This document shows, piece after piece, positions 21,682 to 43,802 of a stretch of 44,961 nt of DNA. A model generated the notes under the pieces. That model did not search any database. It saw only the letters and a program-made list of their open reading frames with translations, and was not told where the DNA came from. The translations under genes were made by a program, and so were the position numbers. How positions within the stretch are numbered: position 1 is the first letter of the stretch; each line of letters opens with the position of its first letter. The stretch is from Rhodospirillaceae bacterium TMED23 (GTDB lineage Bacteria > Pseudomonadota > Alphaproteobacteria > Rhodospirillales > UBA2165), in NCBI GenBank assembly GCA_002168115.1, contig NHCC01000021.1, forward strand, positions 39,102 through 84,062, given 5' to 3'.

Positions 21682-22107
21682 TCACGTTACGCAACTATTG
21701 GATTTGCTCAAGTGCTCTGCCATTTTTCGAACATGGCCAGTTAGTATATTAATTAAAGCCCTTTGGAACGGGTCAGCATTAATTAACTTCTGCTTAAATT
21801 GATTGCGATCGATCACGAGGACTTCCACTATTCCACCAGATGCTCGGGCAGAACCCATCCGTTTCGCATTATCAATTAAAGCCATCTCCCCAAACATGCC
21901 CCCCTTTCCAACAGTTCCAATAACGACATCCTTTTCTCCTACGAGCCTAGAAATACAAACTGTGCCCGATAGCACTACAAAAGCAAGGTCTCCAATTTCC
22001 CCTTCGCGAAAAATATACTTTCCCTCTTTAAATGTTCTTTTTTCAGAACCCAAAGGTATTTGAATTTCTGAGTCCTCGTTATCCGTATTTGGCTGTTCAT
22101 TTATCAT
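21682..22107 (-). CDS. Stand-alone cyclic nucleotide-binding domain protein
   Basis: A 141-residue protein consisting of one cNMP-binding beta-roll: 'FKEGKYIFREGEIGDLAFVV' then 'LSGTVCISR', and the phosphate-binding cassette 'GGMFGEMALIDNAKRMGSA' near residues 80-98. The Glu and a downstream Arg that grip cyclic nucleotides in CRP-type domains are present in slightly altered context (AKRMGSA rather than PRxAT). There is no helix-turn-helix, so it is not a CRP/FNR regulator. Such proteins may act as soluble sensors or partner subunits. A second, more canonical copy of this domain ends the ABC fusion gene at 35151-38252. Confidence 0.85.
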   Translation of the reverse strand: MINEQPNTDNEDSEIQIPLGSEKRTFKEGKYIFREGEIGDLAFVVLSGTVCISRLVGEKDVVIGTVGKGGMFGEMALIDNAKRMGSARASGGIVEVLVIDRNQFKQKLINADPFQRALINILTGHVRKMAEHLSKSNSCVT

Positions 22108-28677: not shown

Positions 28678-29832
28678 TTACTTATATGGATCGGCAGCAT
28701 CTCTCAGTCCATCGCCAAAAAAATTAAAAGCAAGAACCGTAATAATTACCGGGATTGCTGGGAAAAGCAACCAAGGATAAACTGCTACGGCCTGAAAATT
28801 CTGAGCTTCTACTAGCAAAACCCCCCAACTAGTAACTGGTGGGCGCAAACCTAAACCCAAGAAACTCAATGCTGTTTCAGCCAAGATCATTGATGGAATC
28901 GATAATGTCGCCGACGCAATTAAATGACTCATAAAATTTGGTAGGAGGTGTCGCGCGATAACACGACGCGGTTTTGCGCCCATAAGGGTTGCGGCAGTAC
29001 AAAAATCCTCCTCCCTGAGTGATAACAACTTTGATCTAACTGCCCGCGCCAACCCCGGCCAATCGACTAAACCCAAAATAATTGTTAAACCGAAAAAAAC
29101 TGTCAGAGGGCTCCAATCTTCAGGCATAGCTGCCGATAAGCCCATCCAAAGGGGCAATTCTGGTATTGATCGCAAAATTTCAATTGAACGCTGGGCTAAA
29201 TTATCAACCCAACCTCCAAAAAAACCCGCCGCGCCTCCTATTGTCAGACCTAAAAAGAAGCTGATGGCAATTCCGATTAATCCAACCGTTAGCGAAATTC
29301 TGGCCCCATATATTATTCTAGACCAAATGTCGCGCCCCAACCTATCGGTACCGAGAAAGAAGAAAGTACCCCCGGGAGCTGGACATATGAAATGCAGGTC
29401 CATCTCATATAAACCCCAAAGTTTATACGTATCACCATGGCATATAAAACGAAGCTTTTGCACTTTATCTGGATTTGGAGTATATTCTCGGCGCAATGTT
29501 TTTAAATTTAAGTTATAGTCTAGACCCAATACAAATGGCCCAACAAACTGCCCTTTATTAAAGAATTGAACAGACTGAGGCGGAGCAAAAATATGATCTG
29601 TATGCCTATGGGGTAAACTATAAGTAGCTAAGAATTCTGTAAATAAGATTGATACGTACATCAAAACTAAAATACTCCCCGAAAGTACAGCTATCCTGTG
29701 ACGTTTCAGGCGCCACCACATCATTTTCCATTGGGATGCCATGTAGAAACGCTCTTGCTCAGGAGTTAGCTCCTGGGTTTCATTTGGATTGAACATTGAT
29801 GTCGAGACATAATGTCTTAATTTATCACTCAC
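28678..29832 (-). CDS. Peptide-type ABC transporter permease (DppC/OppC/YejE-like)
   Basis: A 384-residue inner-membrane permease. TM1 is near residues 50-72 ('IAVLSGSILVLMYVSILFT'). A loop of about 100 residues, probably periplasmic, follows before the conserved 'FLGTDRLGRDIWSRIIYGAR', then the five-helix core with the EAA coupling loop 'GAKPRRVIARHLLPN'. The long loop after TM1 is larger than in ordinary DppC proteins. It overlaps the upstream permease by one base (29832). The operon (membrane protein, ATPase, binding protein, permeases) forms a complete importer for a peptide, opine or similar nitrogen-rich solute. Confidence 0.9.
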   Translation of the reverse strand: MSDKLRHYVSTSMFNPNETQELTPEQERFYMASQWKMMWWRLKRHRIAVLSGSILVLMYVSILFTEFLATYSLPHRHTDHIFAPPQSVQFFNKGQFVGPFVLGLDYNLNLKTLRREYTPNPDKVQKLRFICHGDTYKLWGLYEMDLHFICPAPGGTFFFLGTDRLGRDIWSRIIYGARISLTVGLIGIAISFFLGLTIGGAAGFFGGWVDNLAQRSIEILRSIPELPLWMGLSAAMPEDWSPLTVFFGLTIILGLVDWPGLARAVRSKLLSLREEDFCTAATLMGAKPRRVIARHLLPNFMSHLIASATLSIPSMILAETALSFLGLGLRPPVTSWGVLLVEAQNFQAVAVYPWLLFPAIPVIITVLAFNFFGDGLRDAADPYK

Positions 29833-30824
29833 TATCGGCTCCCTTCTAATCTTATACGGGGATCAAGTACCGCAAGTAATAAATCTGATATAAAAGTACC
29901 TAATACCGTTAATAAAGAGACAAACAAAAGAAATGATCCCGCCAAATACGTATCCTGGCTGATCAAAGCGTCTAAAATAACAGGTCCAGTCGTTGGTAGA
30001 TCCATTATTACAGCGACAATAACTGAGCCTGAAATTACCTGAGGGAGAAGGTTTCCAATATCTGCAATAAAAGGATTTAAAGCCATTCGTAAAGGGTATT
30101 TTATTAAAACTTTACTTTCCGATAGGCCTTTAGCACGGGCTGTAATAACATATTGTTTATTAAGCTCATCGAGTAAATTGGCCCTAAGTCTTCTGATCAT
30201 CCCAGCCGTTCCTGATGTACCAATAACAACAACGGGAACTACTAAGTGTTCCAATAATGAAATAATTTTATCCAACGTCCAGGGTTGGCCCTCAAAACTT
30301 GGATCAACGAGTCCTCCGATTGAGGTTCCAAAGTACTTACGAGCAAGAAACATCAATATTAATGCTAAGAGAAAATTAGGCGTCGCTAAACCAATAAATC
30401 CGATAAAGGTAAGGCCATTATCCCCCCAGCTATATTGATGAGTTGCCGAGTATACGCCGATCGGGAATGCTACAACGTAAATAAACAATATAATAGTAAA
30501 GTTCAGAATAAGTGAAAATAAAAAAACATCGCCAATTACATCTACCACGGGTAAATCAAATTCAATTGAACGTCCAAAATCACCCTGAACAATTCCAGTA
30601 ACCCAGTTAATATATTGCAACCAAATCGGTTTATCTAAACCATACTCCTCTTTGAGATATGCTATTTTTTCAGGATCAACCGCCTCTCCTTGACTTTCAA
30701 GTTCAGCAATATAGCTGGTGAGATAGTCACCCTCCGGTAATTGAATAATTATAAACACCAGGGCACTCACTACTAAAAGTGTTACCAACATAGTGAATAT
30801 TCGACGAACAAAATAACTAAACAT
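29832..30824 (-). CDS. Peptide-type ABC transporter permease (DppB/OppB/YejB-like)
   Basis: A 330-residue permease with an N-terminal anchor 'MFSYFVRRIFTMLVTLLVV', then 'YGLDKPIWLQYINWVTGIVQGDFG', about five further hydrophobic helices and the EAA-type loop 'TARAKGLSESKVLIKYPLR' that docks onto the ATPase. The C-terminus ends with 'LDPRIRLEG', typical of DppB proteins. It pairs with the permease downstream and starts 18 bases after the binding-protein gene. Confidence 0.92.
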   Translation of the reverse strand: MFSYFVRRIFTMLVTLLVVSALVFIIIQLPEGDYLTSYIAELESQGEAVDPEKIAYLKEEYGLDKPIWLQYINWVTGIVQGDFGRSIEFDLPVVDVIGDVFLFSLILNFTIILFIYVVAFPIGVYSATHQYSWGDNGLTFIGFIGLATPNFLLALILMFLARKYFGTSIGGLVDPSFEGQPWTLDKIISLLEHLVVPVVVIGTSGTAGMIRRLRANLLDELNKQYVITARAKGLSESKVLIKYPLRMALNPFIADIGNLLPQVISGSVIVAVIMDLPTTGPVILDALISQDTYLAGSFLLFVSLLTVLGTFISDLLLAVLDPRIRLEGSR

Positions 30825-30842
30825 ATCTTAAATTATAAACCT

Positions 30843-32747
30843 TTATTTATTTTTTCTGAGTGCTGGATCATCCAGCCAAAATTGGTCTGGGCGATGAACA
30901 CCAAAATGGGCCCCAGGGTCCCAATTATAAATAGCTGTTTTAGGAATATTTTTAATATTTTTATTAGCAACAATTACTTTAGGAACACTAGCAATAATAC
31001 CAATGGAAAACATCTGATCGGTATAAATTTCTAACATTTGATGCCAAATATTCCTCCTATTAGCTGTCATAGCACTCGTCGCCCATTTTTTATTCAATAA
31101 CAATAATTTTTCTGCTGGCCCCATATCAACAGGTAGTCCAGAATTCCCATTCGTTTCAGCATATTGGCCCCATTTTGGCCACTGCAACTGTTGTTGGGAA
31201 GTTGGCGACAGTTCGTGCGGACTCGACTGGGCATTAGGAATTCCATTTTCCAAACCAGACCACATTGACATTTTGATAGCGCCACTAAATATTCTGTTAC
31301 GAAGTACTTCTCGTTGCATAGGTTTTAAAAATATTTTCACACCAATTCTTCGCCATGTATCACTAATAAGCTCCAAAACGTCAGAAGACTCGGTCTCTTC
31401 AGTCGAAAACGCAATGGTAAATTCTAATTTCTTTCCATTTGGAAGCAAACGGATCCCAGAGTTTGTTTTCTGCGTTAAGCCCATTTGATCAAGTAAACTA
31501 TTAGATTTATCAATATCAAAATTAGCCCACTTTTTCTGATATAAGGAACGATAAAGGGGGCTCTCCGGAAGCACGGTATTATTTCCAGGCCTCGCTAATC
31601 CATAGTAAATGACTTGATTAATCTCATGACGATTAATTGCCAGAGATAGTGCCCTTCTGAAACGCACGTCTCGTAATATTCTTCTCCATTGAGCATCATT
31701 TGTATTAAGGTTAGGGAATAAAGCCCAACGGGATCCTTTGGCAGTTTTCCATAAAAGTGTTCTAAAACCAGAACCCTCCTCCGATTGCTTCAACGCTGTA
31801 ACATTGCTGAAGGAAAGCCCCCTTCCTTGCAAATCCGTCTCACCACCACCAGCTTTTATAGGAATCAATTTACTATTCGTGACATTCATCCTAATCTCAT
31901 CCAAGTACGGCAATTGGTGCCCTGCACGATCTATTCTATGATAATATTTGTTTCTTAAAAATCTAAACCGTTTTGAAGGAGGTCGAGTCGATAAAATCCA
32001 AGGCTGGAGGCTTGGTAGATCTGGATTAGAGTTTTTATACTGTTCACTTACAGAATAATGGAGTGCAAGCCAATTTCGTTTATTTGCGTATTTAGCCTTA
32101 GACTGAAGAATGCTTTTATCTACATACTTTATATGAAATTTCTTAAGATAATGCGCTGGTCTGTATATATAAAGTGGCCTTGCACCAGCCAACCTCGGCA
32201 GAAAAAATGGGTTTGGCTTTTTCCAAGTATATCTTATGGTAAATTCATTTAAGATTTTAAATTCCGGCTTTTGGCCCTCTATAATCATGGAACTTGGAAC
32301 ATTCTCATTCGCAACTTCATTATTAGTGGCAACATCTTCCCAATAATATCGAAAGTCCTCTGCCGTGAATGGATGACCATCTGACCACTTATGACCTTTA
32401 CGTAGATATAACGTGAATATCCTTCCATCCTGAACGTCTATCTTTGACAAAATATCTGGTCTAATATTAAATTTACTATCATATCCTACTAATCTTGCGT
32501 ATCCATAAACTACTAGCTGGCGCGTATCCTTCTTTCGTCCCATCAGAACATTTATAATTCCACCCGGCTTGCCACTAGTGTCTACAATTGATGGTTCAGA
32601 TGGAATCCTATCCCTGATTGAAGGCAACTGTCCCTTTGAAACCTCATCTATTAGGATTGGGGTTTCAATTAATTCAAAACTGCTCGCAGTACTAATATAA
32701 AAAAGAAAGAGAACTAATATAAAAAACGATTTAGTATTTCCAAACAT
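30843..32747 (-). CDS. ABC transporter substrate-binding protein (SBP_bac_5, peptide type)
   Basis: A 634-residue extracytoplasmic binding protein. The N-terminus is a signal peptide (basic start, 'FFILVLFLFYISTASSF') without a lipobox cysteine, so the mature protein should be soluble in the periplasm. 'FTLYLRKGHKWSDGHPFTAE' near residue 110 is the family signature. It is longer than E. coli DppA/OppA (about 535-545 residues) and belongs to the large COG4166/YejA-like set. Its ATG directly abuts the stop of the ATPase gene (zero bases between), so its ribosome site must lie in the ATPase coding region. Ligand unknown. Confidence 0.9.
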   Translation of the reverse strand: MFGNTKSFFILVLFLFYISTASSFELIETPILIDEVSKGQLPSIRDRIPSEPSIVDTSGKPGGIINVLMGRKKDTRQLVVYGYARLVGYDSKFNIRPDILSKIDVQDGRIFTLYLRKGHKWSDGHPFTAEDFRYYWEDVATNNEVANENVPSSMIIEGQKPEFKILNEFTIRYTWKKPNPFFLPRLAGARPLYIYRPAHYLKKFHIKYVDKSILQSKAKYANKRNWLALHYSVSEQYKNSNPDLPSLQPWILSTRPPSKRFRFLRNKYYHRIDRAGHQLPYLDEIRMNVTNSKLIPIKAGGGETDLQGRGLSFSNVTALKQSEEGSGFRTLLWKTAKGSRWALFPNLNTNDAQWRRILRDVRFRRALSLAINRHEINQVIYYGLARPGNNTVLPESPLYRSLYQKKWANFDIDKSNSLLDQMGLTQKTNSGIRLLPNGKKLEFTIAFSTEETESSDVLELISDTWRRIGVKIFLKPMQREVLRNRIFSGAIKMSMWSGLENGIPNAQSSPHELSPTSQQQLQWPKWGQYAETNGNSGLPVDMGPAEKLLLLNKKWATSAMTANRRNIWHQMLEIYTDQMFSIGIIASVPKVIVANKNIKNIPKTAIYNWDPGAHFGVHRPDQFWLDDPALRKNK

Positions 32748-34631
32748 TTAAGATACTCTTCTTACAAAATGATTGGGGTCAATCTCAGTTAATTTTGCAT
32801 CACTGCCGTTTACCAGATTAAAAGGCTGAGGCCATGTTTCAGGATTTGAGGCTCTACCATCCATTAACTCTGTAAAATCTAATTTTTGGTTTATATCTGG
32901 ATGCGGAATAGCCGAAAGCAGGGCTTTAGTATAGGGATGAACGGGATTATCAAATAGAACTTCTCGAGGCGCCATTTCAACCAATCTACCTGCGCACATT
33001 ACAGCTATATTATCAGCTATATAGTTAACCACGGCCAAATTATGAGAGACAAATAAATATGTTAACTCTAATTTTTTCTGAAGATCTTTTAATAAGTTTA
33101 ATATCTGAGCCTGAATCGAAACATCCAACGCTGATACTGGCTCGTCACACAGTAGTAAAGTCGGTCTCAAGGCAAGAGATCGCGCAATACTTATACGTTG
33201 TCGCTGCCCACCTGAAAAACTATGAGGATATCGATTTAAGAATTGAGGATCTAAACCAACTAAATCCATTAACTCTTTTACCATTTCAATCCGATACTTT
33301 CGATCACCTATTTTGTGTATCTCTAAGGGTTCAGTTATTATATCAAATATGGTCATGCGTGGATTAAGGGCACCAAAAGGATCCTGAAAAATATATTGGT
33401 ACTTAGTTCTATAAGGTATAAGTTGACGCGCCTTTAAGCTCGTAAGGTCAGTTTCTTGACCATCATGGTTAAAAATAACCTCTCCCTGATCAGGATCAAT
33501 AGCACGCATAATTATTTTACTGAGTGTTGTTTTACCACACCCACTCTCCCCTACAAGGCCCAACGTCTTTCCTCTTTCTATCTCAAAACTTACATCGTCT
33601 ACCGCATTAATTAGGTTTTTCTTGGAACTAACCATTCCAGCAGAACGCACACTGTACGATTTAGAGATATTTTTAACCTTTAATATAAGTGAACTCTGGT
33701 TCTCAATAGCTGTTATATCATGAGCTTTAGAAATCAAATGTCCCGTTGTGGGCTTTATATCTCTGAGAGGTTTAAGACGTTCACCTTCCAGCATATTGAA
33801 ACGCGGTACTGCAGAAAGTAAAGATTTTAAGTATGGGTGAGATGGATTCTGAAAAATATCAACAATACTTCCCGCCTCCATGACTTCGCCTTTATACATA
33901 ACGATTACTGAATCCGCTACATTTGCAACAACACCCAAATCATGTGTGATCAAAAGAACGGCCATTTTCCGTTTTATTTGGAGATCGCTAATTAATTTGA
34001 GTATTTGAGCCTGAATGGTAACGTCAAGAGCGGTAGTTGGTTCATCAGCAATCAACAAGGCTGGCTTGCAAACCAGAGCCATCGCAATCATAGCTCGTTG
34101 ACGTAATCCACCTGAAAGCTCAAATGGATAAGTTTTTATAGCTCTATTTGGGTTAGGAAAACCAACAACACTCAAGATCTCAATTGCAGCTGCCTTAGCT
34201 TCAGACCTTGATATAATTGAATGCAACCTAACCGCCTCAATAATCTGGTTACCAATCGTATGAAGTGGGGACAAGGAAGTCATGGGTTCTTGAAATATCA
34301 TCGATATTTGCGAACCTCGTATCGATTGTATTGCGGCACTGTTGTTTCTGAGTTTAGCGATATCGATAATCTTACGATCAAAGAAACCTTGTTTCTTTCT
34401 ACGTTCCACTTTTTGACTTCTAAATAAAATCTCTCCCTCTGTTATCGTGGCAGGTTTTGGAAGAATACCCAGAATCGCTTGAGCTATAGTCGATTTTCCT
34501 GAACCAGACTCACCCACTATGGCAACAGTTGTGGATTCTTTTATACCAAATGTAACACCATTCACCGCCTTAACAGTTCCAGATGGTACTCGGAATTCAA
34601 TAGAAAGGTCTCGAACTTGCAATAGATTCAT
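32748..34631 (-). CDS. Double ATPase of peptide-type ABC importer (DppD-DppF fusion, YejF-like)
   Basis: Two complete nucleotide-binding domains in 627 residues. NBD1 has Walker A 'GESGSGKSTIAQ', signature 'LSGGLRQRAMIAMAL' and Walker B 'LLIADEPTTALD'. NBD2 has 'GESGCGKTTLSKI', 'FSGGQRQRISIARSLAL' and 'LLLCDEPVSALD'. Each half ends with the 'SHPYLKSLLSAVP' / 'VHPYTKALLSAIP' oligopeptide-transporter extension. All catalytic motifs are intact, in contrast to the neighbouring fusion gene at 35151. The gene overlaps the upstream small membrane protein by 4 bases (ATGA). Confidence 0.95.
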   Translation of the reverse strand: MNLLQVRDLSIEFRVPSGTVKAVNGVTFGIKESTTVAIVGESGSGKSTIAQAILGILPKPATITEGEILFRSQKVERRKKQGFFDRKIIDIAKLRNNSAAIQSIRGSQISMIFQEPMTSLSPLHTIGNQIIEAVRLHSIISRSEAKAAAIEILSVVGFPNPNRAIKTYPFELSGGLRQRAMIAMALVCKPALLIADEPTTALDVTIQAQILKLISDLQIKRKMAVLLITHDLGVVANVADSVIVMYKGEVMEAGSIVDIFQNPSHPYLKSLLSAVPRFNMLEGERLKPLRDIKPTTGHLISKAHDITAIENQSSLILKVKNISKSYSVRSAGMVSSKKNLINAVDDVSFEIERGKTLGLVGESGCGKTTLSKIIMRAIDPDQGEVIFNHDGQETDLTSLKARQLIPYRTKYQYIFQDPFGALNPRMTIFDIITEPLEIHKIGDRKYRIEMVKELMDLVGLDPQFLNRYPHSFSGGQRQRISIARSLALRPTLLLCDEPVSALDVSIQAQILNLLKDLQKKLELTYLFVSHNLAVVNYIADNIAVMCAGRLVEMAPREVLFDNPVHPYTKALLSAIPHPDINQKLDFTELMDGRASNPETWPQPFNLVNGSDAKLTEIDPNHFVRRVS

Positions 34632-35131
34632 TTTTCAGTAGACCTAAAATCTGATATATCTATGTTGGAGGCTTCCAAATTTAATAGAGTTGTACGCTTT
34701 AAAGTTAGATTATTAACCTTTGCAGCAGCGACCACTCTTTCTAAAATTACATCGAAATCAGATAAACTGGATTCAAGACACATTTTTTTATTTATCCCAT
34801 GAATACACAATTGCGCCCAGTTTAAATTTGACCCACGCGATGTTGTAAAGCATGAAACTGTAACATCTGAGACAGTATTCCAATAAATAATTTTTGGGAA
34901 TGGCAAATTAACGCTAATTTTTTTCTCGTCAGTAATCACTCTTAATTTATGCCATAATAATGTTCTTAAACCGTAAAGCGCAAAAATAAAACCTAACCCA
35001 ATAAAAAACGGAACTATCCCAGTCATCTCAGCACCTAGGTAAAAGGGAGAAAGACAAATCGCCAAGCCTATAAACGCACGTATGTAACTATTTCTTAAAT
35101 TAGCAAAACTATAGCGATATTCCTTAATCAT
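34628..35131 (-). CDS. Small membrane protein with PH-like C-terminal region
   Basis: A 167-residue protein with two adjacent hydrophobic helices ('IRAFIGLAICLSPFYLG' and 'GIVPFFIGLGFIFALYGL', residues about 18-60) followed by a soluble domain of beta-rich look ('LRVITDEKKISVNLPFPKIIYWNTVSDVTV'). The two-helix hairpin plus 'VTDEKI' pattern resembles bacterial PH-domain (bPH/YdbT-type) membrane proteins, but I am not certain. It lies 19 bases downstream of the ABC/cNMP fusion and its stop overlaps the ATPase start. It might be an accessory of either transporter. Confidence 0.6.
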   Translation of the reverse strand: MIKEYRYSFANLRNSYIRAFIGLAICLSPFYLGAEMTGIVPFFIGLGFIFALYGLRTLLWHKLRVITDEKKISVNLPFPKIIYWNTVSDVTVSCFTTSRGSNLNWAQLCIHGINKKMCLESSLSDFDVILERVVAAAKVNNLTLKRTTLLNLEASNIDISDFRSTEK

Positions 35132-35150: not shown

Positions 35151-38100
35151 TTATTTTTTTGCTTCACTTAAATCTTTCGTTGTACGAACCAATCGATCTG
35201 CCAGGAAACGCGTTACTCTCGCACTCATATTTACATCTTCAGAAATTAGCTTAAAGAAAACATCTTTGGAAATACTCATAAGACTCAGTTCCGTGGAAGC
35301 TCTGATAGTAGCTGTCCTCGGGGCATCACAGAGCAATGCTAGCTCGCCAAATAGATCATTTTTTGACATGGTCACCAACTTCTGTGGTCCATCTTCTGTT
35401 TCGAGAATGACATCAGCATCACCACTTATAATGACATATGCTTTATCACCAACGTCGCCTTGCTTAAAAACATTATCATCTGTGGCATATTTATGTCGTT
35501 CACTCGCAAATGATAGAAGTTTTAATTTTGAACGATCTAAACCACCAAATAGTGGTACTCCAGCTAATACATCTATCTCATCGCCGAAGCCACCTTCACT
35601 TCTTGTTTCAGATCCTTCATCAGAGTTCTCAGTATGATCGACTGTATCACCTTCAGATAAAACTTTTCCACTTTTAACCGAAAATATTTTATCAAAACCT
35701 TGACCCGCCTCAGCTTCACTTGGAACAAATAGTAAACTTTTGCCTTCTTGTTCCTTACGAATACTCTCCAAAACGTTTTGCTGACTCTCTTGGTCCAAAC
35801 CTGTTAATGCCTCATTCATAACAAAAATGTCAGGCTCCTTAAACATTCCTCGAGCCAAAGCAAGTTTTTGCCTTTGAATATTTGATAACCTAGACCCACC
35901 ATTTCCAACGTCATAGTTTAGACCTAGATCAATTATTTCAGAATGGAGGCCAGTCTCTCGAATGACTGCTATCATCAACTCTCCAACGGCCTCTGTACTC
36001 CCTGCTCTCTCACTTGCAAGTTTTCCAAATAATATATTATCCTGAACCGAACTCGCCGAGTTATAACTCTCCGAATCGAAGAACTCTACCGACGCCCGCA
36101 GATCTTCTGGTAAACCTTCAGAAAAGGCAATTCGTGCCTTTAATAATTGAGAGCAGAAATCATCATCTACCAGACCAACGTGATGCCTGGCCGGTATCAA
36201 TTTAAAAGGTAAAACTCTTAATCTAGATCTATCCTCATCTGCCAAACTATCTAAGCCCTTATTAGTTATTTTAGTAAGCAAACTTTCAAATTCAGGAAGA
36301 TCATCAGAACTTATAAAACTAAAGCGTTCAAAAAACTCGTGGTCCGATGGCAATCCCCTAAACAGATCAACCATAATTTCCGCTAGTTTCTGGCCCTTTT
36401 GCATGAAGGCTTCAGTAAGTCCACAAGTATTGAGCACTTCCTGAACATACTCGTTCTCGCCCAAAGACTCGATATTAAAATTCTCTCCAACAGGTGTGCC
36501 AAATAATATATTTTCCGCAACCGATGCATTACTGTTGAATTTTTCTTTATCGAATGACTCAACAAATCCCGACATTTTTGCATCATTCAAACGTTTACGA
36601 AGTTCCTGGCGAGCACTCAATATTTTATTCGCTAGATCGTCCTGATTTGTTTTATCAATAGTTTGTCTAAGCCCTATTTGGTAAACATCATCCTCTAATC
36701 CAACTTTGGATAAATAATGAACAGCTTTAACGTTCAACTCTGTTTCGGTATCAATACCAATTGATGCCATATCAACCCAATCAGCTCGAATATCATTTGA
36801 ACTGTTTCCAGCACCACCAGACTCCTCAAGAAAACGCTCTCTAACAACTTTTTCTTCTTCTGAATAATCCGCTTCTTTTTTCGGCCTGTGTTTAAGTCCG
36901 TAAAGTAAGTTATCTCGAATGGTACCAGAAAAGATATATGGTTCTTGACTAACATAAGAGACTTTTCGCCCAGTAATCGCTTCAGGCATCTCATTTACAT
37001 TACTATCATTAATTGTTACGCGTCCAGAAGTAGGCTCTAACAATCCGGCCATAATTTGGGAATATTCATTCTTACCACTACCTGGAGCGCCGACCACCGC
37101 AACATGCGCTGGGAGTTCAACAGACATTGATGCACTATCCAGGATTTTAAGACCATCATCCTCAACTAAACTAATATTTGCAGCTGCTAGTTTCCCCTCA
37201 AGATTAGGCAAACTATCTGGCTCAATAGTTTGCTTTTCGACATCTTTTAAGTCAGGTAACTCAAATTTTTCAATAAGCTGCTCATACTTTATTCGAGAAT
37301 CCTCCAAGCGTTGGTAATAGGTAAGCAACATTTTCCAAGGCGCGGAGACATCCTTGTATGCACCCAAAATAGCAATCAGGGCTCCCACGGAAATATCACC
37401 TTGTATTACTAGATAGCCACCTATGGAGTAAAAGAAAAATGGCGTAAGCAAAGCTAGAAAATTATTAACAAATTTAATAAAAAACTTCTTCTTATAAATT
37501 TCGAAACGAATATTATAGAGTGATCCTAGCCTCTCTGATAGATCAGCCAGCTCAAATTGTGAAGTATCATTCGCATGAATTTCATGAGCTCCTGACACAG
37601 CCTCTCCAATGCGCTCAGATAGCCTACGAACCGTTAATACCCTTTGTTTTCCAAGTAAGTTAACTTTTCTTTGTAGTTTTGGAATCAGATAGCCTTGAAC
37701 TGGATATAATGCGACCGCCGCTAATCCAAGCTTCCAATCTTGAACAAACATAAAGATCATGAGGGTCAATAAAGTACCACCTTGATAGGTGGGAAGGGAT
37801 AGTGCCTCGCCAAAAAAACCACCGAGTGGCTCAGTTTCTAGCGCAACCATAGATACAACTTCACCTTGAGATGTTTTTTTAAATTGGGGCAGAGGAAAGC
37901 GAAGAACCCGCTCTAACAACTGATATCTTAGACGCCGTAACATTCTCTCTCCGGCAGCGCCACGATAAACATTGATGAAATATTTGAACCCACCATTAAT
38001 AAATACTAGAGCTAAAAAAGTAAAACAAAGTACAAGTAAATAACCTACTTGGCTAAATTCAAAGCCCAGAACTTCGACAGGGAAAGAAGCACTCTTTTCT

Positions 38101-38252
38101 CCCCCTTTACCACCAAGAGCTTTATCAACAATTTGCTTAGGAATATCCAAGGAAACAAAATAAAAAGGGAAAGAGAGCGCTGCCATTAACATCAAAAACA
38201 ATTGTTCTTTCTTGCTATACCGCAATACGTAGCTAAATATTCCTTTATCCAT
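35151..38252 (-). CDS. ABC-transporter-like membrane protein with degenerate ATPase, repeat insertion and cNMP-binding domain
   Basis: A 1033-residue fusion. Residues about 1-330 form an exporter-type membrane domain ('RYQLLERVLRFPLPQFKK' coupling helix region, about six hydrophobic segments). Walker A is 'GAPGSGKNE': Lys394 is kept but Asn395 replaces Ser/Thr. The Q-loop 'YVSQEPYIFSGTIRDNL' is near 432-448. The helical part then expands to about 340 residues and contains three 'xVxxNILFG'-like segments. The signature is LSNIQ rather than LSGGQ, Walker B reads 'FVMNEAL' (Asp to Asn813), and the H-loop His is Ser (VPSE, about 845). Residues about 895-1020 are a canonical cNMP domain with 'FGELALLCDAPRTATIRA'. 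A clear promoter (38296-38325) and an AAGGGG site precede it. Substrate unknown; possibly a regulated, non-hydrolysing ABC protein. Confidence 0.85.
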   Translation of the reverse strand: MDKGIFSYVLRYSKKEQLFLMLMAALSFPFYFVSLDIPKQIVDKALGGKGGEKSASFPVEVLGFEFSQVGYLLVLCFTFLALVFINGGFKYFINVYRGAAGERMLRRLRYQLLERVLRFPLPQFKKTSQGEVVSMVALETEPLGGFFGEALSLPTYQGGTLLTLMIFMFVQDWKLGLAAVALYPVQGYLIPKLQRKVNLLGKQRVLTVRRLSERIGEAVSGAHEIHANDTSQFELADLSERLGSLYNIRFEIYKKKFFIKFVNNFLALLTPFFFYSIGGYLVIQGDISVGALIAILGAYKDVSAPWKMLLTYYQRLEDSRIKYEQLIEKFELPDLKDVEKQTIEPDSLPNLEGKLAAANISLVEDDGLKILDSASMSVELPAHVAVVGAPGSGKNEYSQIMAGLLEPTSGRVTINDSNVNEMPEAITGRKVSYVSQEPYIFSGTIRDNLLYGLKHRPKKEADYSEEEKVVRERFLEESGGAGNSSNDIRADWVDMASIGIDTETELNVKAVHYLSKVGLEDDVYQIGLRQTIDKTNQDDLANKILSARQELRKRLNDAKMSGFVESFDKEKFNSNASVAENILFGTPVGENFNIESLGENEYVQEVLNTCGLTEAFMQKGQKLAEIMVDLFRGLPSDHEFFERFSFISSDDLPEFESLLTKITNKGLDSLADEDRSRLRVLPFKLIPARHHVGLVDDDFCSQLLKARIAFSEGLPEDLRASVEFFDSESYNSASSVQDNILFGKLASERAGSTEAVGELMIAVIRETGLHSEIIDLGLNYDVGNGGSRLSNIQRQKLALARGMFKEPDIFVMNEALTGLDQESQQNVLESIRKEQEGKSLLFVPSEAEAGQGFDKIFSVKSGKVLSEGDTVDHTENSDEGSETRSEGGFGDEIDVLAGVPLFGGLDRSKLKLLSFASERHKYATDDNVFKQGDVGDKAYVIISGDADVILETEDGPQKLVTMSKNDLFGELALLCDAPRTATIRASTELSLMSISKDVFFKLISEDVNMSARVTRFLADRLVRTTKDLSEAKK
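36024..36929 (-). repeat. Repeated 'V..NILFG' segment inside the ABC/cNMP fusion
   Basis: Three related stretches: 'SGTIRDNLLYG' (36897-36929), 'NSNASVAENILFG' with flank 'FVESFDKEKF' (36498-36566) and 'NSASSVQDNILFG' with flank 'SVEFFDSESY' (36024-36092). The last two are similar over 23 residues and share an identical 14-base string (CCAAATAATATATT) on the plus strand. Spacings between copies are 133 and 158 residues. Each copy is followed by a '..V....GL' helix ('YLSKVGLED', 'VLNTCGLTE', 'VIRETGLHS'). This suggests tandem duplication of the helical lobe of the nucleotide-binding domain. Confidence 0.7.
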
Positions 38253-38413: not shown

Positions 38414-39559
38414 TTATACTAGTGAAGATATAATATCAGCCGTCTTTTCTGCTCCTGAAATATTAATATTATGCTTTACATTAATTGGCTCTTCTAACGA
38501 AAGATTAATCATAATAACTAATTTTTCGAGAGTTAAATCTTCTTCTGGTATCTGACGGATCAAACCACGTTGTGCAAGAAGTCTCGTTCTGAGAGTTTGC
38601 TCCGTTTCATGGCCTCCAGCATACGGTACGGAAATACTATTCGCTTTAGTTGCCAGAGTTTCCATAAGAGTGTTATAGCCTCCCTGCGAAATGGATAACC
38701 GACAATTTTTCAAAAGACCTATAAAATCAGGCCGGGCTCTCTCAACTACCAGTCCTTTTTCCTCAGATTCTTTCAAAGAATGAAAAACAATATCACTAAT
38801 ACTATAGCCCACTAAAATACGCCAAAGATGATTTTTTGCATTAGTAAAGGGTCTGGCCTTGATAGCAAGTTTAAGTAAATTTTCCCCAACCGCGCCGCTT
38901 CCTGATGAAACTAAAATTTCAGATGGTCTCGCCGCAACCTCTTCGTTTCTAATTTTTTCCTGATCAACAACATAGCCCGTATATTTGATTAAATTTATAA
39001 TTTCATTGGACTTTGGGAAAGTTTTATCAAACGGAATTAAGCTAGGATCGCCATGAACGAGAACCAAGTCAAAGTATTGTTTTACTCTTTCAATCATTTC
39101 TTTATCTCGATGCGGTTTATTTTTTTCAACCAAAATATCGCGAACAGAACAAATAATTTTTACGCTCGATTTCAATTTTTTTGCCTTCTCAAGTAAAGGT
39201 AATAGTTCAAATTCGAGTTGACGCCGACCAAACGGATATAATTCTATAATTAAAATATCAGGATCAGTAAGTGTAAAAACCTCAAGAAGTTTGTTCCGAC
39301 GAAGCATTTTAAGTTCATTGCTTATTTGCTGACCATCGGAATCAATTAAAGATTCAAATTTACGATTGCTTGCCTTAATTGAAGGGAGTTGAATAAAGGT
39401 CATTCCAGTATCATCGATAACTGGAACATTCTCTCCACCAGAAATTATTGACACCTCCAAATTTTTTTTCAGCATCGATCTAGCTAATGTAATTGTTCTC
39501 TTAACATGCCCTATACCCAATAAATGTTGGACATAAAAAAGTACTTTAGATCTTGACAT
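38414..39559 (-). CDS. MurG-like glycosyltransferase (COG4671 type), copy 2
   Basis: A 381-residue GT-B glycosyltransferase. The N-terminal domain opens with 'VLFYVQHLLGIGHVKRTITLA' (glycine-rich GHxxR loop). The C-terminal sugar-nucleotide domain has 'ILVSSGSGAVGENLLKLAIKA' and 'LSISQGGYNTLMETLATKANSI', the MurG/GT28-like G-N-T-L-E region. It is a distant paralogue of the gene at 42561-43802; both have the same opening (LGxGHxRR/K) and the same 'DIFVVDKEPLG/DILIIELYPFG' acidic site after strand 4. It is the last gene of a five-gene run, 12 bases after the phosphatase. Donor and acceptor unknown. Confidence 0.82.
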   Translation of the reverse strand: MSRSKVLFYVQHLLGIGHVKRTITLARSMLKKNLEVSIISGGENVPVIDDTGMTFIQLPSIKASNRKFESLIDSDGQQISNELKMLRRNKLLEVFTLTDPDILIIELYPFGRRQLEFELLPLLEKAKKLKSSVKIICSVRDILVEKNKPHRDKEMIERVKQYFDLVLVHGDPSLIPFDKTFPKSNEIINLIKYTGYVVDQEKIRNEEVAARPSEILVSSGSGAVGENLLKLAIKARPFTNAKNHLWRILVGYSISDIVFHSLKESEEKGLVVERARPDFIGLLKNCRLSISQGGYNTLMETLATKANSISVPYAGGHETEQTLRTRLLAQRGLIRQIPEEDLTLEKLVIMINLSLEEPINVKHNINISGAEKTADIISSLV

Positions 39560-39571
39560 AATTTTATTTTT

Positions 39572-40156
39572 CTATTTTAGGTTAATATTTAGACTAACTA
39601 TTCTCGGCTCTCCGGTATTATTTAATTCAAATAAATGCATACATCCATCATTCAATTTCTCTTCGGGCTTTTCAACCATATCCCAGCCCACTGAAAGAGC
39701 GTATAAAGCTCTTATAAACCCCTTATGTGTAACTATGATGGTTGGTTTTCCTTCTTGAGCTATCTCTTTTAATAGAGGCTGCATCCTATTTTGTACTTCT
39801 CTAGGACTTTCGCCATTAGGACCACGAAAATCTAACCCCTTTGCCTCCCAAGCGACCATAAGATCACCTAACTCGCTTCTTAAGTCTACCAGGCTTCGTC
39901 CTTCCCAATCCCCCCAAGCCATTTCAACGGCTCTTGAGTCTAATCGTGGCTTAAAACCAGCTAGTATTTGTGCGGTTTGATAAGCTCGTTTCAATGGGCT
40001 CGCAATCCAATTATAATTATCAAAATCCCGAGGCAACGACCATTCAGAAACTTCTTTTACACCATAATCACTCAGTGGGATATCAGTGCTGCCTTGAACC
40101 AAACCTGTTAGGTTCCAATGAGTTTTTCCATGCCGAATAAGGCCTATTTTTGTCAT
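39572..40156 (-). CDS. Histidine phosphatase (phosphoglycerate mutase-like)
   Basis: A 194-residue branch-2-like histidine phosphatase. 'GLIRHGKTHWNLTGLVQGST' (residues 5-24) holds the phospho-accepting RHG histidine; 'ASPLKRAYQTAQIL' has the second Arg, 'EMAWGDWEGRS' the acid and 'IIVTHKGFIRAL' the second His. All catalytic residues are present. It overlaps the upstream glycosyltransferase by 4 bases, so it probably dephosphorylates a sugar-phosphate intermediate or product of these glycosyltransferases rather than acting in glycolysis. That role is inference from context. Confidence 0.88.
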   Translation of the reverse strand: MTKIGLIRHGKTHWNLTGLVQGSTDIPLSDYGVKEVSEWSLPRDFDNYNWIASPLKRAYQTAQILAGFKPRLDSRAVEMAWGDWEGRSLVDLRSELGDLMVAWEAKGLDFRGPNGESPREVQNRMQPLLKEIAQEGKPTIIVTHKGFIRALYALSVGWDMVEKPEEKLNDGCMHLFELNNTGEPRIVSLNINLK

Positions 40157-41277
40157 TGAATTACACTTCCTATTGCATCATTAATAATCTCAGCAGCCCG
40201 CTCAATCGAATGTTCATCCCGAGCAATTCTGCGTGCTTCTTCAGACATTCTCTCCCTTAGACTCACGCTTGATATCATCAAATCAATTGCCTCAGAGAAT
40301 TGTTTAACATCGCCAACATCACATAATAAGCCAGTTTTATCATGGCGTACAATGTCACTAACACCCCCGCTCCTTCCAGATATAACAGGCAATCCAGACA
40401 TTTGGGCTTCGAGCATTGCCATGCCATAGGCTTCATCCACCGCAGGCCATAAAAATAAATCACTTCCAGACAAAATCTTATTGATATCCTCCTGATTTAG
40501 CTGTCCCAAAAAGAAAATATTATCGCGGTTTAAGTAAGAGGTAACTTTATCTCTCGCTGGTCCATCACCTACCACCAATAACTGCCAATTATTATGGTTA
40601 CATTGATCTAGAGACCGACCCAATAATTCATATGATTTAAGCTTAGCATCATCTCTCATCATAGCTACTGTTACTAAAATACACTTTGAATTATCCAATT
40701 GATATTTTTCAATTAATTCTATACGGGATATTTTTCGGAATAAAAAAGAAGGCGAAATATCTGTAAATGGCCTTAATAATATATGTTTTTGGGAATTACT
40801 CAAAAGGGGCAATACACAATGTGTGTCAGCTGAATTAACACTAAAAATAATATTTGCGTATTGTATTATTTTGATGACCTCTGAATGACTTGCGCTCCAA
40901 TTACCTTTAGAACGTTTAGGAGCATGCGAGACTTCAGCTGCTATATATGGTATGCTTAATTCCTTCGAAACCGTTGGCCCTATCCAATCAACAGCTTTAT
41001 AATAAAGATGGTAAGTAAACCAAAGTTCAGGCCGCTCAGACTGATTAATATTCTTAAACGACCTAATTAAAGACTCAGCTATCTGTTCTCCTTTTTCTTT
41101 AAATTCTTTTTGAGTTTGGCTACTACCGTGAGGATCACGAGACTGAAAGTCAGAAACAATTGAAACTTTATGTTTCTTGTGTTCAAGTGCTCTAATAAAC
41201 GCCCTAGCTATTTTTCTATCTCCAGACGGCACATCAGAGTTCGGTGATTTTAATGGTGCATAAAATGCAATCTGCAT
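40153..41277 (-). CDS. Glycosyltransferase family 4 protein A
   Basis: A 374-residue GT-B retaining glycosyltransferase. The N-terminal acceptor domain begins 'IAFYAPLKSPNSDVPSGDRKIAR'; the C-terminal domain has 'VTVAMMRDDAKLKSYELLGRS', 'LLVVGDGPARDKV' and the EX7E-type donor site 'DEAYGMAMLEAQMSGLPVIS'. It starts 4 bases after the stop of the next GT4 gene and overlaps the phosphatase start, so the three are tightly coupled. The donor (a nucleotide sugar) and acceptor are unknown. Confidence 0.88.
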   Translation of the reverse strand: MQIAFYAPLKSPNSDVPSGDRKIARAFIRALEHKKHKVSIVSDFQSRDPHGSSQTQKEFKEKGEQIAESLIRSFKNINQSERPELWFTYHLYYKAVDWIGPTVSKELSIPYIAAEVSHAPKRSKGNWSASHSEVIKIIQYANIIFSVNSADTHCVLPLLSNSQKHILLRPFTDISPSFLFRKISRIELIEKYQLDNSKCILVTVAMMRDDAKLKSYELLGRSLDQCNHNNWQLLVVGDGPARDKVTSYLNRDNIFFLGQLNQEDINKILSGSDLFLWPAVDEAYGMAMLEAQMSGLPVISGRSGGVSDIVRHDKTGLLCDVGDVKQFSEAIDLMISSVSLRERMSEEARRIARDEHSIERAAEIINDAIGSVIQ

Positions 41278-41281
41278 TGGA

Positions 41282-42529
41282 CTATCTCTTCAATTCTCTT
41301 TTTAGAGGCAAATCAAACAAGGGAAATATCTTCTCGATACAGTCTCTAAAATCAAAACCGTTGAGTACCTTCAGTCGACCGGCCAAGCCCATTTTTGAAC
41401 GATCATCTGGACTGGTAATAAAGCGAGTTAGCGCGTTTATAAGCATTTCATTATTCTCATAGGAAACTAATAATCCTGTCTTTTCGTGATCAATTAACTC
41501 TGGTATTGCTGAAATGTTAGTCGATATGCAAGGCAACCCAATGGATTGGGCCTCCATTAGCACGTTAGGCAAACCATCCCTGTCGCCGTTGTGGGCGATG
41601 ATGCATGGTAAGACGAAAATATCCGTTTTTTTATACTCGAGTATTACAGCTTCTTGTGTTTGAGAGCCGAGCCACGTGATATTATTATTAATCCCCAATT
41701 TATCTGCTAATCGTTGAAGTTTTGGTTTAAGTGGCCCTCCACCCACATGTGTAAAATGCCAATTTAAATTATCTTGTATTGCTGCCAAAGCCTCTAAAAG
41801 ATTTACGTAACCTTTCTTTTCAACAGCTCGCCCAACTGATAAAATACGAACTGGGTCCAACTTCTTTAATCCTGTTCTATCGCTATAATTTGGAGAAGTA
41901 TTCCGAAATCTATTTAAATCAATACCATGATAAGCTAAAAAAACTTTGGAAGAGTCATGCGCTAAAAAGGAGAGCCGTTCATAATTCGTTCTAGTACACG
42001 TCACTATCCAACTACAACTCATCAACTTGCCTTTAAGTTCAGCCTCCGGCGTTGTCCAGATGTCAACAGCGTGAGCTGAGCAAGACCATTCCAAGCCTCT
42101 AAGAATAGCCGTATATTGGGCAACTGAAGCTGGAGTATGAAGAAAATGAGCATGAATATGTTCAATATTACTGGGCAATTCGGCCGCTAGAACGATAGCT
42201 TGGCCGAAACGACGAAATCGGCTTAATGAAAAATCAGACTTTAAATCTTTCCTCCATACTAAATAGGCCTTCCTATAACCTTCACATTTTTTAATTTTCC
42301 ACCAGGACTTAACAACACGACTCACTTCGAGATACAAGTATTCTGGTAAGTATTTTACTAGTGATTTAATCTCGTTATGAATAGGATGAATCTTATGATC
42401 CGTTGGTTTTCTAAGCGAAATTATATGAATATTTAACCCGGACTTTTCTAACTCTAAGATCTCTTGCGCAATAAAAGTTTCTGAGAGACGTGGATAACCT
42501 TTAACAATAATAGCGATATTTTTTGGCAA
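41282..42529 (-). CDS. Glycosyltransferase family 4 protein B
   Basis: A 415-residue GT4 protein. 'IAIIVKGYPRLSETFIAQEIL' at the N-terminus and 'EHIHAHFLHTPASVAQYTAIL' near residue 118 resemble the WcaL/AmsK-type exopolysaccharide transferases. 'RILSVGRAVEKKGYVNLLEAL' (residues about 228-248) opens the donor domain, and 'RDGLPNVLMEAQSIGLPCIS' carries the EX7E-like region (Asp-Gly-Leu-Pro variant). No membrane helix. It lies 31 bases after the copy-1 COG4671 glycosyltransferase and 4 bases before GT4 A. Confidence 0.88.
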   Translation of the reverse strand: MPKNIAIIVKGYPRLSETFIAQEILELEKSGLNIHIISLRKPTDHKIHPIHNEIKSLVKYLPEYLYLEVSRVVKSWWKIKKCEGYRKAYLVWRKDLKSDFSLSRFRRFGQAIVLAAELPSNIEHIHAHFLHTPASVAQYTAILRGLEWSCSAHAVDIWTTPEAELKGKLMSCSWIVTCTRTNYERLSFLAHDSSKVFLAYHGIDLNRFRNTSPNYSDRTGLKKLDPVRILSVGRAVEKKGYVNLLEALAAIQDNLNWHFTHVGGGPLKPKLQRLADKLGINNNITWLGSQTQEAVILEYKKTDIFVLPCIIAHNGDRDGLPNVLMEAQSIGLPCISTNISAIPELIDHEKTGLLVSYENNEMLINALTRFITSPDDRSKMGLAGRLKVLNGFDFRDCIEKIFPLFDLPLKRELKR

Positions 42530-42560: not shown

Positions 42561-43802
42561 TTATCCCATAAGAGCAGAAATATCTATCGCTTCTTGATTG
42601 CTTCTGTTCTTTTCAAGATGTCGTCCCACTAAACGACTAATATTTGGCAAACCATCCAGTAATCCCGGTAAAACTATATCTGATGGCGGACGTTGCTGAG
42701 GAAGTTGTCGCAATGCCGTTATCATAGAGCATGTATCTCTAAATCCATCGTCATTTAAGACTGACATTAGCCCAAGTTCTTGAGCCCTCGAAGCTCTAAT
42801 ATATTGCTCTAATCTTGGCTTAGTGCGAGGTATAATTAAAGCGGGCTTATTAAATGATAAAATTTCACAAAACGTATTATATCCCCCCATGGCTATAATA
42901 CCGATTGCGTTTTTCATTAAGTGCTCAATATGTGAATCAAAAACAATTGATTCGACATTTTCTAGCGTCTCAATACGTTTAATAAATTTCTCCTGATCAT
43001 CGTTTTGCATGAAAGGCCCAAAGACGATCAGAGCACGGTGAGGAATAAATTTGGAGGACTCATAAGCCCTTAGCACCCAATCAATTAAATCCTCACCATC
43101 ACCCCCTCCCCCAGCGGTAACCAAAAAATAGCTACTTTCGTTCTTCACAGCAGGTACCGTTGCGGAAGCGTCTGGAACTGCGTAACGTAAATAACCTGTA
43201 TAAATAATTTTACGCCGCACAGAGGCCGAAAGAGAAATGCCTCTAAGAGGCTCATATATTTGAGGCAATCCATAAACCCAAATTTCATCATATAGATTTT
43301 CAAGCGATGGCATTACGTTCTTACGCTCCCACTCGGGGACCAAAAGTTTGGCTTCATCCATAACATCTCTTAATCCAAGAACAAGTCGGGTTCCGCGTTT
43401 TTTTAAGATTTTTAAGGTCTCCTCCACTTCACCTCTTAGGCCCAATGGTTCTTTATCAACTACAAATATATCAGGATCAAAGACTTCAGCTGTGTGTTGT
43501 ATGATCGAGCCCCGCAACTCCATAGTTTTTTCAATATCCATATGAAGGCTTAGCGACGTATAATCGCCATTTCTCAACTTAATTACTCCTGGAACTCGGA
43601 CGAAATCTACTCTTGATCGAAAATCAAAACTTCCAATTATTGGCGAACCAGAGAGAATTAAAATAGATAAACTCTCATAACACCCAACGAGCGAGTGAGC
43701 GATCTCTCGACATCTTCGCAAATGTCCCAAACCAAAGCTATCATGGCTATAAATTAAAATGCGGCACTCTGGTGAGTTAATGTCAACGTTATCTTCAGCC
43801 AT
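42561..43802 (-). CDS. MurG-like glycosyltransferase (COG4671 type), copy 1
   Basis: A 413-residue GT-B protein with 'ILIYSHDSFGLGHLRRCREIA' near residue 14, 'DIFVVDKEPLGLRGEVEE' near 112, 'FLVTAGGGGDGEDLIDWVL' near 228 and 'IAMGGYNTFCEILSFNKPALII' near 308 (donor site). It is the probable first gene of the glycosyltransferase cluster, 112 bases downstream of the ABC ATPase gene. It is a paralogue of the gene at 38414-39559, and the two bracket the GT4 pair and phosphatase. The product is unknown. Confidence 0.84.
   Translation of the reverse strand: MAEDNVDINSPECRILIYSHDSFGLGHLRRCREIAHSLVGCYESLSILILSGSPIIGSFDFRSRVDFVRVPGVIKLRNGDYTSLSLHMDIEKTMELRGSIIQHTAEVFDPDIFVVDKEPLGLRGEVEETLKILKKRGTRLVLGLRDVMDEAKLLVPEWERKNVMPSLENLYDEIWVYGLPQIYEPLRGISLSASVRRKIIYTGYLRYAVPDASATVPAVKNESSYFLVTAGGGGDGEDLIDWVLRAYESSKFIPHRALIVFGPFMQNDDQEKFIKRIETLENVESIVFDSHIEHLMKNAIGIIAMGGYNTFCEILSFNKPALIIPRTKPRLEQYIRASRAQELGLMSVLNDDGFRDTCSMITALRQLPQQRPPSDIVLPGLLDGLPNISRLVGRHLEKNRSNQEAIDISALMG

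Follow-up and report, generated by a model that had tools for sequence, protein, structure and literature searches.

A widespread alphaproteobacterial family of ABC-fold membrane proteins with degenerate ATPase motifs and an associated cyclic-nucleotide-binding module

ATP hydrolysis is the defining trait of ABC exporters. SUR and CFTR share the ABC architecture and receive a signalling input, and their output is thought to be other than ordinary pumping. Cyclic-nucleotide-binding (cNMP) domains of the PKA, PKG and MloK1 type, in turn, carry an FGEL...PRTA phosphate-binding motif containing a Glu and an Arg, the latter being followed in PKG by a Thr.

Here we describe a gene, referred to as pABC (pseudo-ABC), located on a 44,961-nucleotide stretch of contig NHCC01000021.1 of Rhodospirillaceae bacterium TMED23 (hereafter, the window). 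The encoded protein is assembled from known parts, namely a type IV ABC exporter fold and a cNMP domain. It resembles type IV exporters (ABCB1/MsbA/TmrAB) in the fold of the membrane domain, the half-transporter layout, the framework of the nucleotide-binding domain (NBD) and the presence of partial motifs. Unlike them, it belongs to a family that has lost the ATPase residues and the A-loop aromatic residue, it includes an insert of about 300 amino acids between the Q-loop and the signature as well as the cNMP domain, and its most conserved part is the membrane domain rather than the NBD. A literature search, with limited coverage of subscription journals, returned no described family with this combination of features. 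Because the catalytic features of an exporter were looked for and found to be lacking, we class pABC as an ABC variant and not as a functional ABC exporter.

The features of the locus are collected in Table 1. Specifically, Pfam searches of the window protein gave an ABC_membrane match at residues 40-296 (E 1.7e-26), a split ABC_tran match and a cNMP_binding match (PF00027) at residues 920-1006 (E 4e-19, 68.8 bits against a cut-off of 27.5). A six-helix exporter membrane domain followed by a C-terminal NBD was recognised by Pfam, in the AF2 model and through Foldseek matches to P-gp and TmrAB.

Table 1. Features of the pABC locus (window positions; residues refer to the pABC protein)
Feature	Positions	Strand	Basis
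Yej/Opp-type ABC system: fused ATPase, SBP family 5, two permeases	28678..34631	-	Pfam, synteny
Conserved small membrane protein, downstream neighbour	34628..35131	-	related gene in 31/77 loci; no Pfam family over cut-off
pABC gene, whole, 1033 aa	35151..38252	-	ORF, Pfam
cNMP-binding domain, residues 893-1033, FGELALLCDAPRTATI motif	35154..35576	-	Pfam, family-wide motif
NBD C-terminal part, residues 718-868: degenerate signature, Walker B, H-loop	35649..36101	-	hhalign
H-loop position, Ser845	35718..35720	-	sequence, homologue alignment
Walker B, residues 809-814, with FVMNE (Asn813-Glu814)	35811..35828	-	sequence, homologue alignment
Signature LSNIQ, residues 789-793	35874..35888	-	sequence, homologue alignment
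Q-loop-like block copy 3 (VEFFDSESYNSASSVQDNILFG), residues 722-743	36024..36089	-	hhalign
Insert, helical domain, residues 455-717	36102..36890	-	no fold match in the PDB, no Pfam family
Q-loop-like block copy 2 (FVESFDKEKFNSNASVAENILFG), residues 563-585	36498..36566	-	hhalign
Degenerate NBD, N-terminal half, residues 350-454, A-loop aromatic absent	36891..37205	-	homologue comparison
Q-loop block copy 1 (VSYVSQEPYIFSGTIRDNLLYGL), residues 431-453	36894..36962	-	hhalign
Walker A GAPGSGKN, residues 388-395 (Asn395)	37068..37091	-	sequence, homologue alignment
Type IV (ABCB/MsbA-like) transmembrane domain, residues 1-330	37263..38252	-	Pfam ABC_membrane, conservation, AF2/Foldseek
GT28-like glycosyltransferase b, upstream neighbour	38414..39559	-	Pfam, synteny
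Histidine phosphatase	39572..40156	-	Pfam, synteny
GT4 glycosyltransferase	40153..41277	-	Pfam, synteny
GT4 glycosyltransferase, most conserved neighbour	41282..42529	-	Pfam, synteny
GT28-like glycosyltransferase a	42561..43802	-	Pfam, synteny

The initial annotation of this sequence had reported four substitutions in the ATPase motifs, and all of them (Asn395, LSNIQ at residues 789-793, Asn813 and Ser845) proved correct. It had also pointed to an alignment of homologues as the way to verify them, and to homologues with intact motifs as the observation that would contradict it. The alignment of about 80 homologues, comprising pABC relatives at 94-30% identity drawn from related genomes and genome contigs, revealed that the same positions are degenerate across the family: among the 79 homologues scored, no catalytically intact member was found, and each one retains at most four of the seven catalytic features. 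The Walker A Ser/Thr, most often replaced by Glu or Asp, is retained in 12/81 sequences, the Walker B Asp in 13/80 and the H-loop His, the most variable of the four substitutions, in 18/80. The Walker A Lys is kept in 45 of the 81 sequences and lost in 36, and the A-loop aromatic residue has disappeared as well, with position 364 being Asp or Glu in 78/81. Across the aligned homologues, the working set of Walker A, signature, Walker B and H-loop expected of an exporter is therefore missing.

These losses have consequences for the proposal of a 'nucleotide-gated' protein which, in the sense of ATP, is tenuous in view of the missing A-loop aromatic and of the Glu or Asp that mostly replaces the Walker A Ser/Thr; some weak binding of ATP is possible, given that K394, Q436 and E814 are kept in the window protein despite Asn395 and Asn813. 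The same three residues would favour the idea that pABC still works as an ATP-driven exporter whose catalysis comes from non-canonical residues or from a partner in a heterodimer; heterodimeric exporters commonly have a degenerate site and keep the other one intact (PMC7756269). We consider this explanation improbable: the Walker A Ser/Thr, the signature, the Walker B Asp and the A-loop are jointly lost in most members, more than a third of the sequences have also lost the Walker A Lys (see above), the cluster shows no canonical half-transporter that could act as partner, and the NBD is less constrained than the membrane domain, as reported below. Moreover, the second pABC copies that were read in some genomes are likewise degenerate. 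At least two pseudo-ABC copies occur in the genomes of L047, L048, L050/L051 and L134/L135, some of them within about 12 kb and in opposite orientation, and such copies could possibly form heterodimers. SUR and CFTR are full-length ABCC proteins which keep one competent site; in pABC, both sites of the presumed homodimer are degenerate, so that the pairing of one degenerate with one competent site is not found when pABC is taken as a homodimer. Unlike SUR and CFTR, the ligand sensor of pABC is the cNMP domain.

By comparing the window gene with its 94% relative, dN/dS values of 0.011-0.054 were obtained in every structured domain, and therefore the pABC protein is under purifying selection. 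Within the pABC family, the mean pairwise identity is 55% in the membrane domain and about 40% in the NBD and insert, while canonical exporters of similar membrane-domain divergence (n=19) display 53% in the membrane domain and 66% in the NBD. This reversal of the canonical order indicates that selection acts most on the membrane domain. The motif losses, together with one gene split over several frames (genome G034), could be taken as signs of a decaying pseudogene or an assembly artefact. Long open frames in more than 100 species and dN/dS values of 0.01-0.05 led us to reject this explanation, to which we assign a negligible likelihood. With no homologue out of the 79 keeping more than four of the seven features, with dN/dS at 0.01-0.05 and with an occurrence in 131/385 species, the motif losses are not decay. 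Judged from sequence, the family-wide catalytic loss appears to be a conserved, hitherto undescribed use of the ABC fold and not a broken pump. The split gene itself (L053, G034:C51) reflects either decay or an assembly error.

The family is present in 131 of the 385 Alphaproteobacteria species sampled, and 301 plasmid records in PLSDB, mainly from Rhizobium and Sinorhizobium, carry a relative. A member from Mesorhizobium is currently annotated just as 'ABC transporter ATP-binding protein'. Two loci of the gammaproteobacterium Motiliproteus (L039, L041) also have the family together with most of the gene cluster, which was probably acquired by horizontal transfer.

The distance between Walker A and the signature is 402 residues in pABC, compared to 104 in a canonical exporter from the same genome, and in the extra segment of about 300 residues the Q-loop/'NILFG' block occurs two more times. 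The insert is conserved, with 10 invariant columns in an alignment of 34 rows, and is confidently predicted by AF2 as a helical domain (pLDDT 92.0, pTM 0.80). A Pfam search of the insert gave no family over the cut-off, and Foldseek against the PDB returned nothing at E <0.001, with no match better than E 0.6. Profile comparisons with hhalign matched copy 1 to the canonical Q-loop (95.2%, E 2.5e-8) and copy 3 (R3) to the canonical ABC-alpha/helical subdomain through Walker B (99.5%, E 2.2e-22). Copies 2 and 3 matched each other at 97.7% (E 1.6e-12), and copies 1 and 3 more weakly, at 64.6% (E 6e-5); as a background, the majority of unrelated segments taken from this protein stay under 2%. The claim of a repeat is thus weaker for copy 1 against copies 2 and 3 than for copy 2 against copy 3. 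In the full AF2 model, the secondary structure recurs in the same order. We read the insert as an expansion that may have arisen when the Q-loop/helical-subdomain block was copied several times, the sequence of these steps being inferred.

The cNMP phosphate-binding motif FGEL..PRTA, including its Glu and Arg, is kept in the pABC family. In this respect, the domain is of the PKA/PKG/MloK1 type, and as in PKG the residue following the Arg is mostly Thr (75/88 motif matches, with duplicate loci counted), a weak hint at a preference for cGMP. Unlike PKA, PKG and MloK1, the domain is fused to, or encoded beside, an ABC-fold membrane protein: it is in cis in the window protein and encoded by a separate gene immediately downstream in most relatives. 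Elsewhere in the window, away from the pseudo-ABC cluster, a 141-aa cNMP-binding protein is encoded on its own (21685-22107, - strand; Pfam E 1.2e-19).

A class III cyclase gene comes after the pABC-cNMP pair in L035-L038 and L148, and lies just upstream in L139 and L150; in the cyclases inspected by eye, the metal-binding Asp and the Asn/Arg positions seem to be retained. Among the 385 Alphaproteobacteria sampled, a class III cyclase is found in 130/131 pABC carriers compared to 119/254 non-carriers (Fisher p 9e-31, a statistic that ignores phylogeny and genome size), and the window genome, a 2.6 Mb draft (G000), has 11 class III cyclase matches. The sole carrier devoid of a class III cyclase (G166) is also devoid of a cNMP domain near pABC, and retains pABC beside GT28a and a GT4. 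This one case, from a draft assembly, suggests that the cNMP module is an input and the glycosyltransferase link the core of the system. In the same genome, a glycerophosphodiester phosphodiesterase-like gene (L174, 2154-2870, - strand), identified by eye, directly follows the pseudo-ABC gene at the usual place of the cNMP gene.

Many single-chain relatives add a C-terminal GGDEF-like domain, a tail that the window protein does not have. The tails of several relatives resemble GGDEF domains in passing the Pfam cut-off (most of those tested exceeded it; L020 did not) and differ from them in the absence of GG(D/E)EF, the active-site motif of diguanylate cyclases, from all 15 single-chain relatives longer than 1180 aa. 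An equivalence of this extension with the adjacent 167-aa ORF was considered and rejected, the extension being GGDEF-like. In G018, G022 and G023 a single GGDEF match was found genome-wide (E about 1e-13 to 1e-12), equal in score to the tail of L013, and on this score the match would be the tail itself. Since no other match accompanies it, a c-di-GMP role for the tail is unsupported in these three genomes. A search of the window genome for GGDEF gave no match.

As for the gene neighbourhood, the most frequent neighbours in the 77 loci compared are a GT4 glycosyltransferase (47), the Yej-type ATPase (45), the two GT28-like proteins (45 and 44), a separate cNMP protein (44), the histidine phosphatase (38), the small membrane protein (31) and a polysaccharide-deacetylase-like protein (30). 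The glycosyltransferase/Yej cluster is found at about 44-47/77 loci, and all these counts are descriptive because among the 77 loci some overlap, some come from nearby species, a few are partial contigs and one does not contain the family. On the Mesorhizobium plasmid pWSM1497 the same cluster is interspersed with several cyclase genes, and in some loci (for example L043, L137, L140 and L147) neither the glycosyltransferase cluster nor a cyclase is near pABC. Within the part of the cluster covered by the window, the Yej-type system would be the only other possible glycan translocator.

Another hypothesis, which takes by itself one of the two outputs considered below for the preferred model, is that pABC is a pure signalling protein or scaffold which transports nothing and which, in response to a cyclic nucleotide, would recruit or control the glycosyltransferases (at certain loci, the cyclase). 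The neighbouring glycosyltransferases would belong, on the basis of their families, to soluble or peripheral types, some loci pair pABC with a cyclase only, the GGDEF-like tail of the relatives lacks its motif, and the insert would offer a plausible docking surface. The strongest constraint falls on the membrane domain and not on the insert or the NBD, which a docking-only role explains less directly; we regard the hypothesis as a serious one with odds somewhat against it.

All together, these data point to pABC as probably being an ABC-fold membrane module that is regulated by cNMP, does not hydrolyse ATP and serves a glycan pathway. The view of a pseudo-ABC protein that is not a normal pump and is controlled by cyclic nucleotides is well supported by the catalytic loss, the purifying selection, the cNMP motif, the cyclase operons and the co-occurrence in 130/131 genomes; between the flippase, channel and sensor that the initial annotation had listed, the sequence does not discriminate. 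Under the preferred model, pABC would dimerise like other half-transporters, would not hydrolyse ATP and probably would not bind it. Binding of cAMP or cGMP produced by class III cyclases would change its conformation, the enlarged NBD would pass this change on to the membrane domain, and the output would benefit the pathway of the adjacent glycosyltransferases. Such output may consist either in the gated passage, without energy input, of an intermediate that is a glycan or a lipid, or in a membrane docking and regulatory platform for the adjacent glycosyltransferases, two options that we hold to be about equally probable. More tentatively, and with the balance leaning towards the negative, cyclic-nucleotide binding instead of ATP hydrolysis might drive or gate the membrane domain through the repeat-expanded NBD and thereby control glycoconjugate traffic in Alphaproteobacteria, which would make pABC a new mechanistic class.

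In conclusion, a widespread family that appears to have abandoned the ATPase, to have its membrane domain under the strongest selection and to use a cNMP switch may tell what the ABC fold does without ATP. In addition, pABC is a candidate effector for many class III cyclases of Alphaproteobacteria, including those of rhizobia that carry pABC on plasmids such as pSymB.
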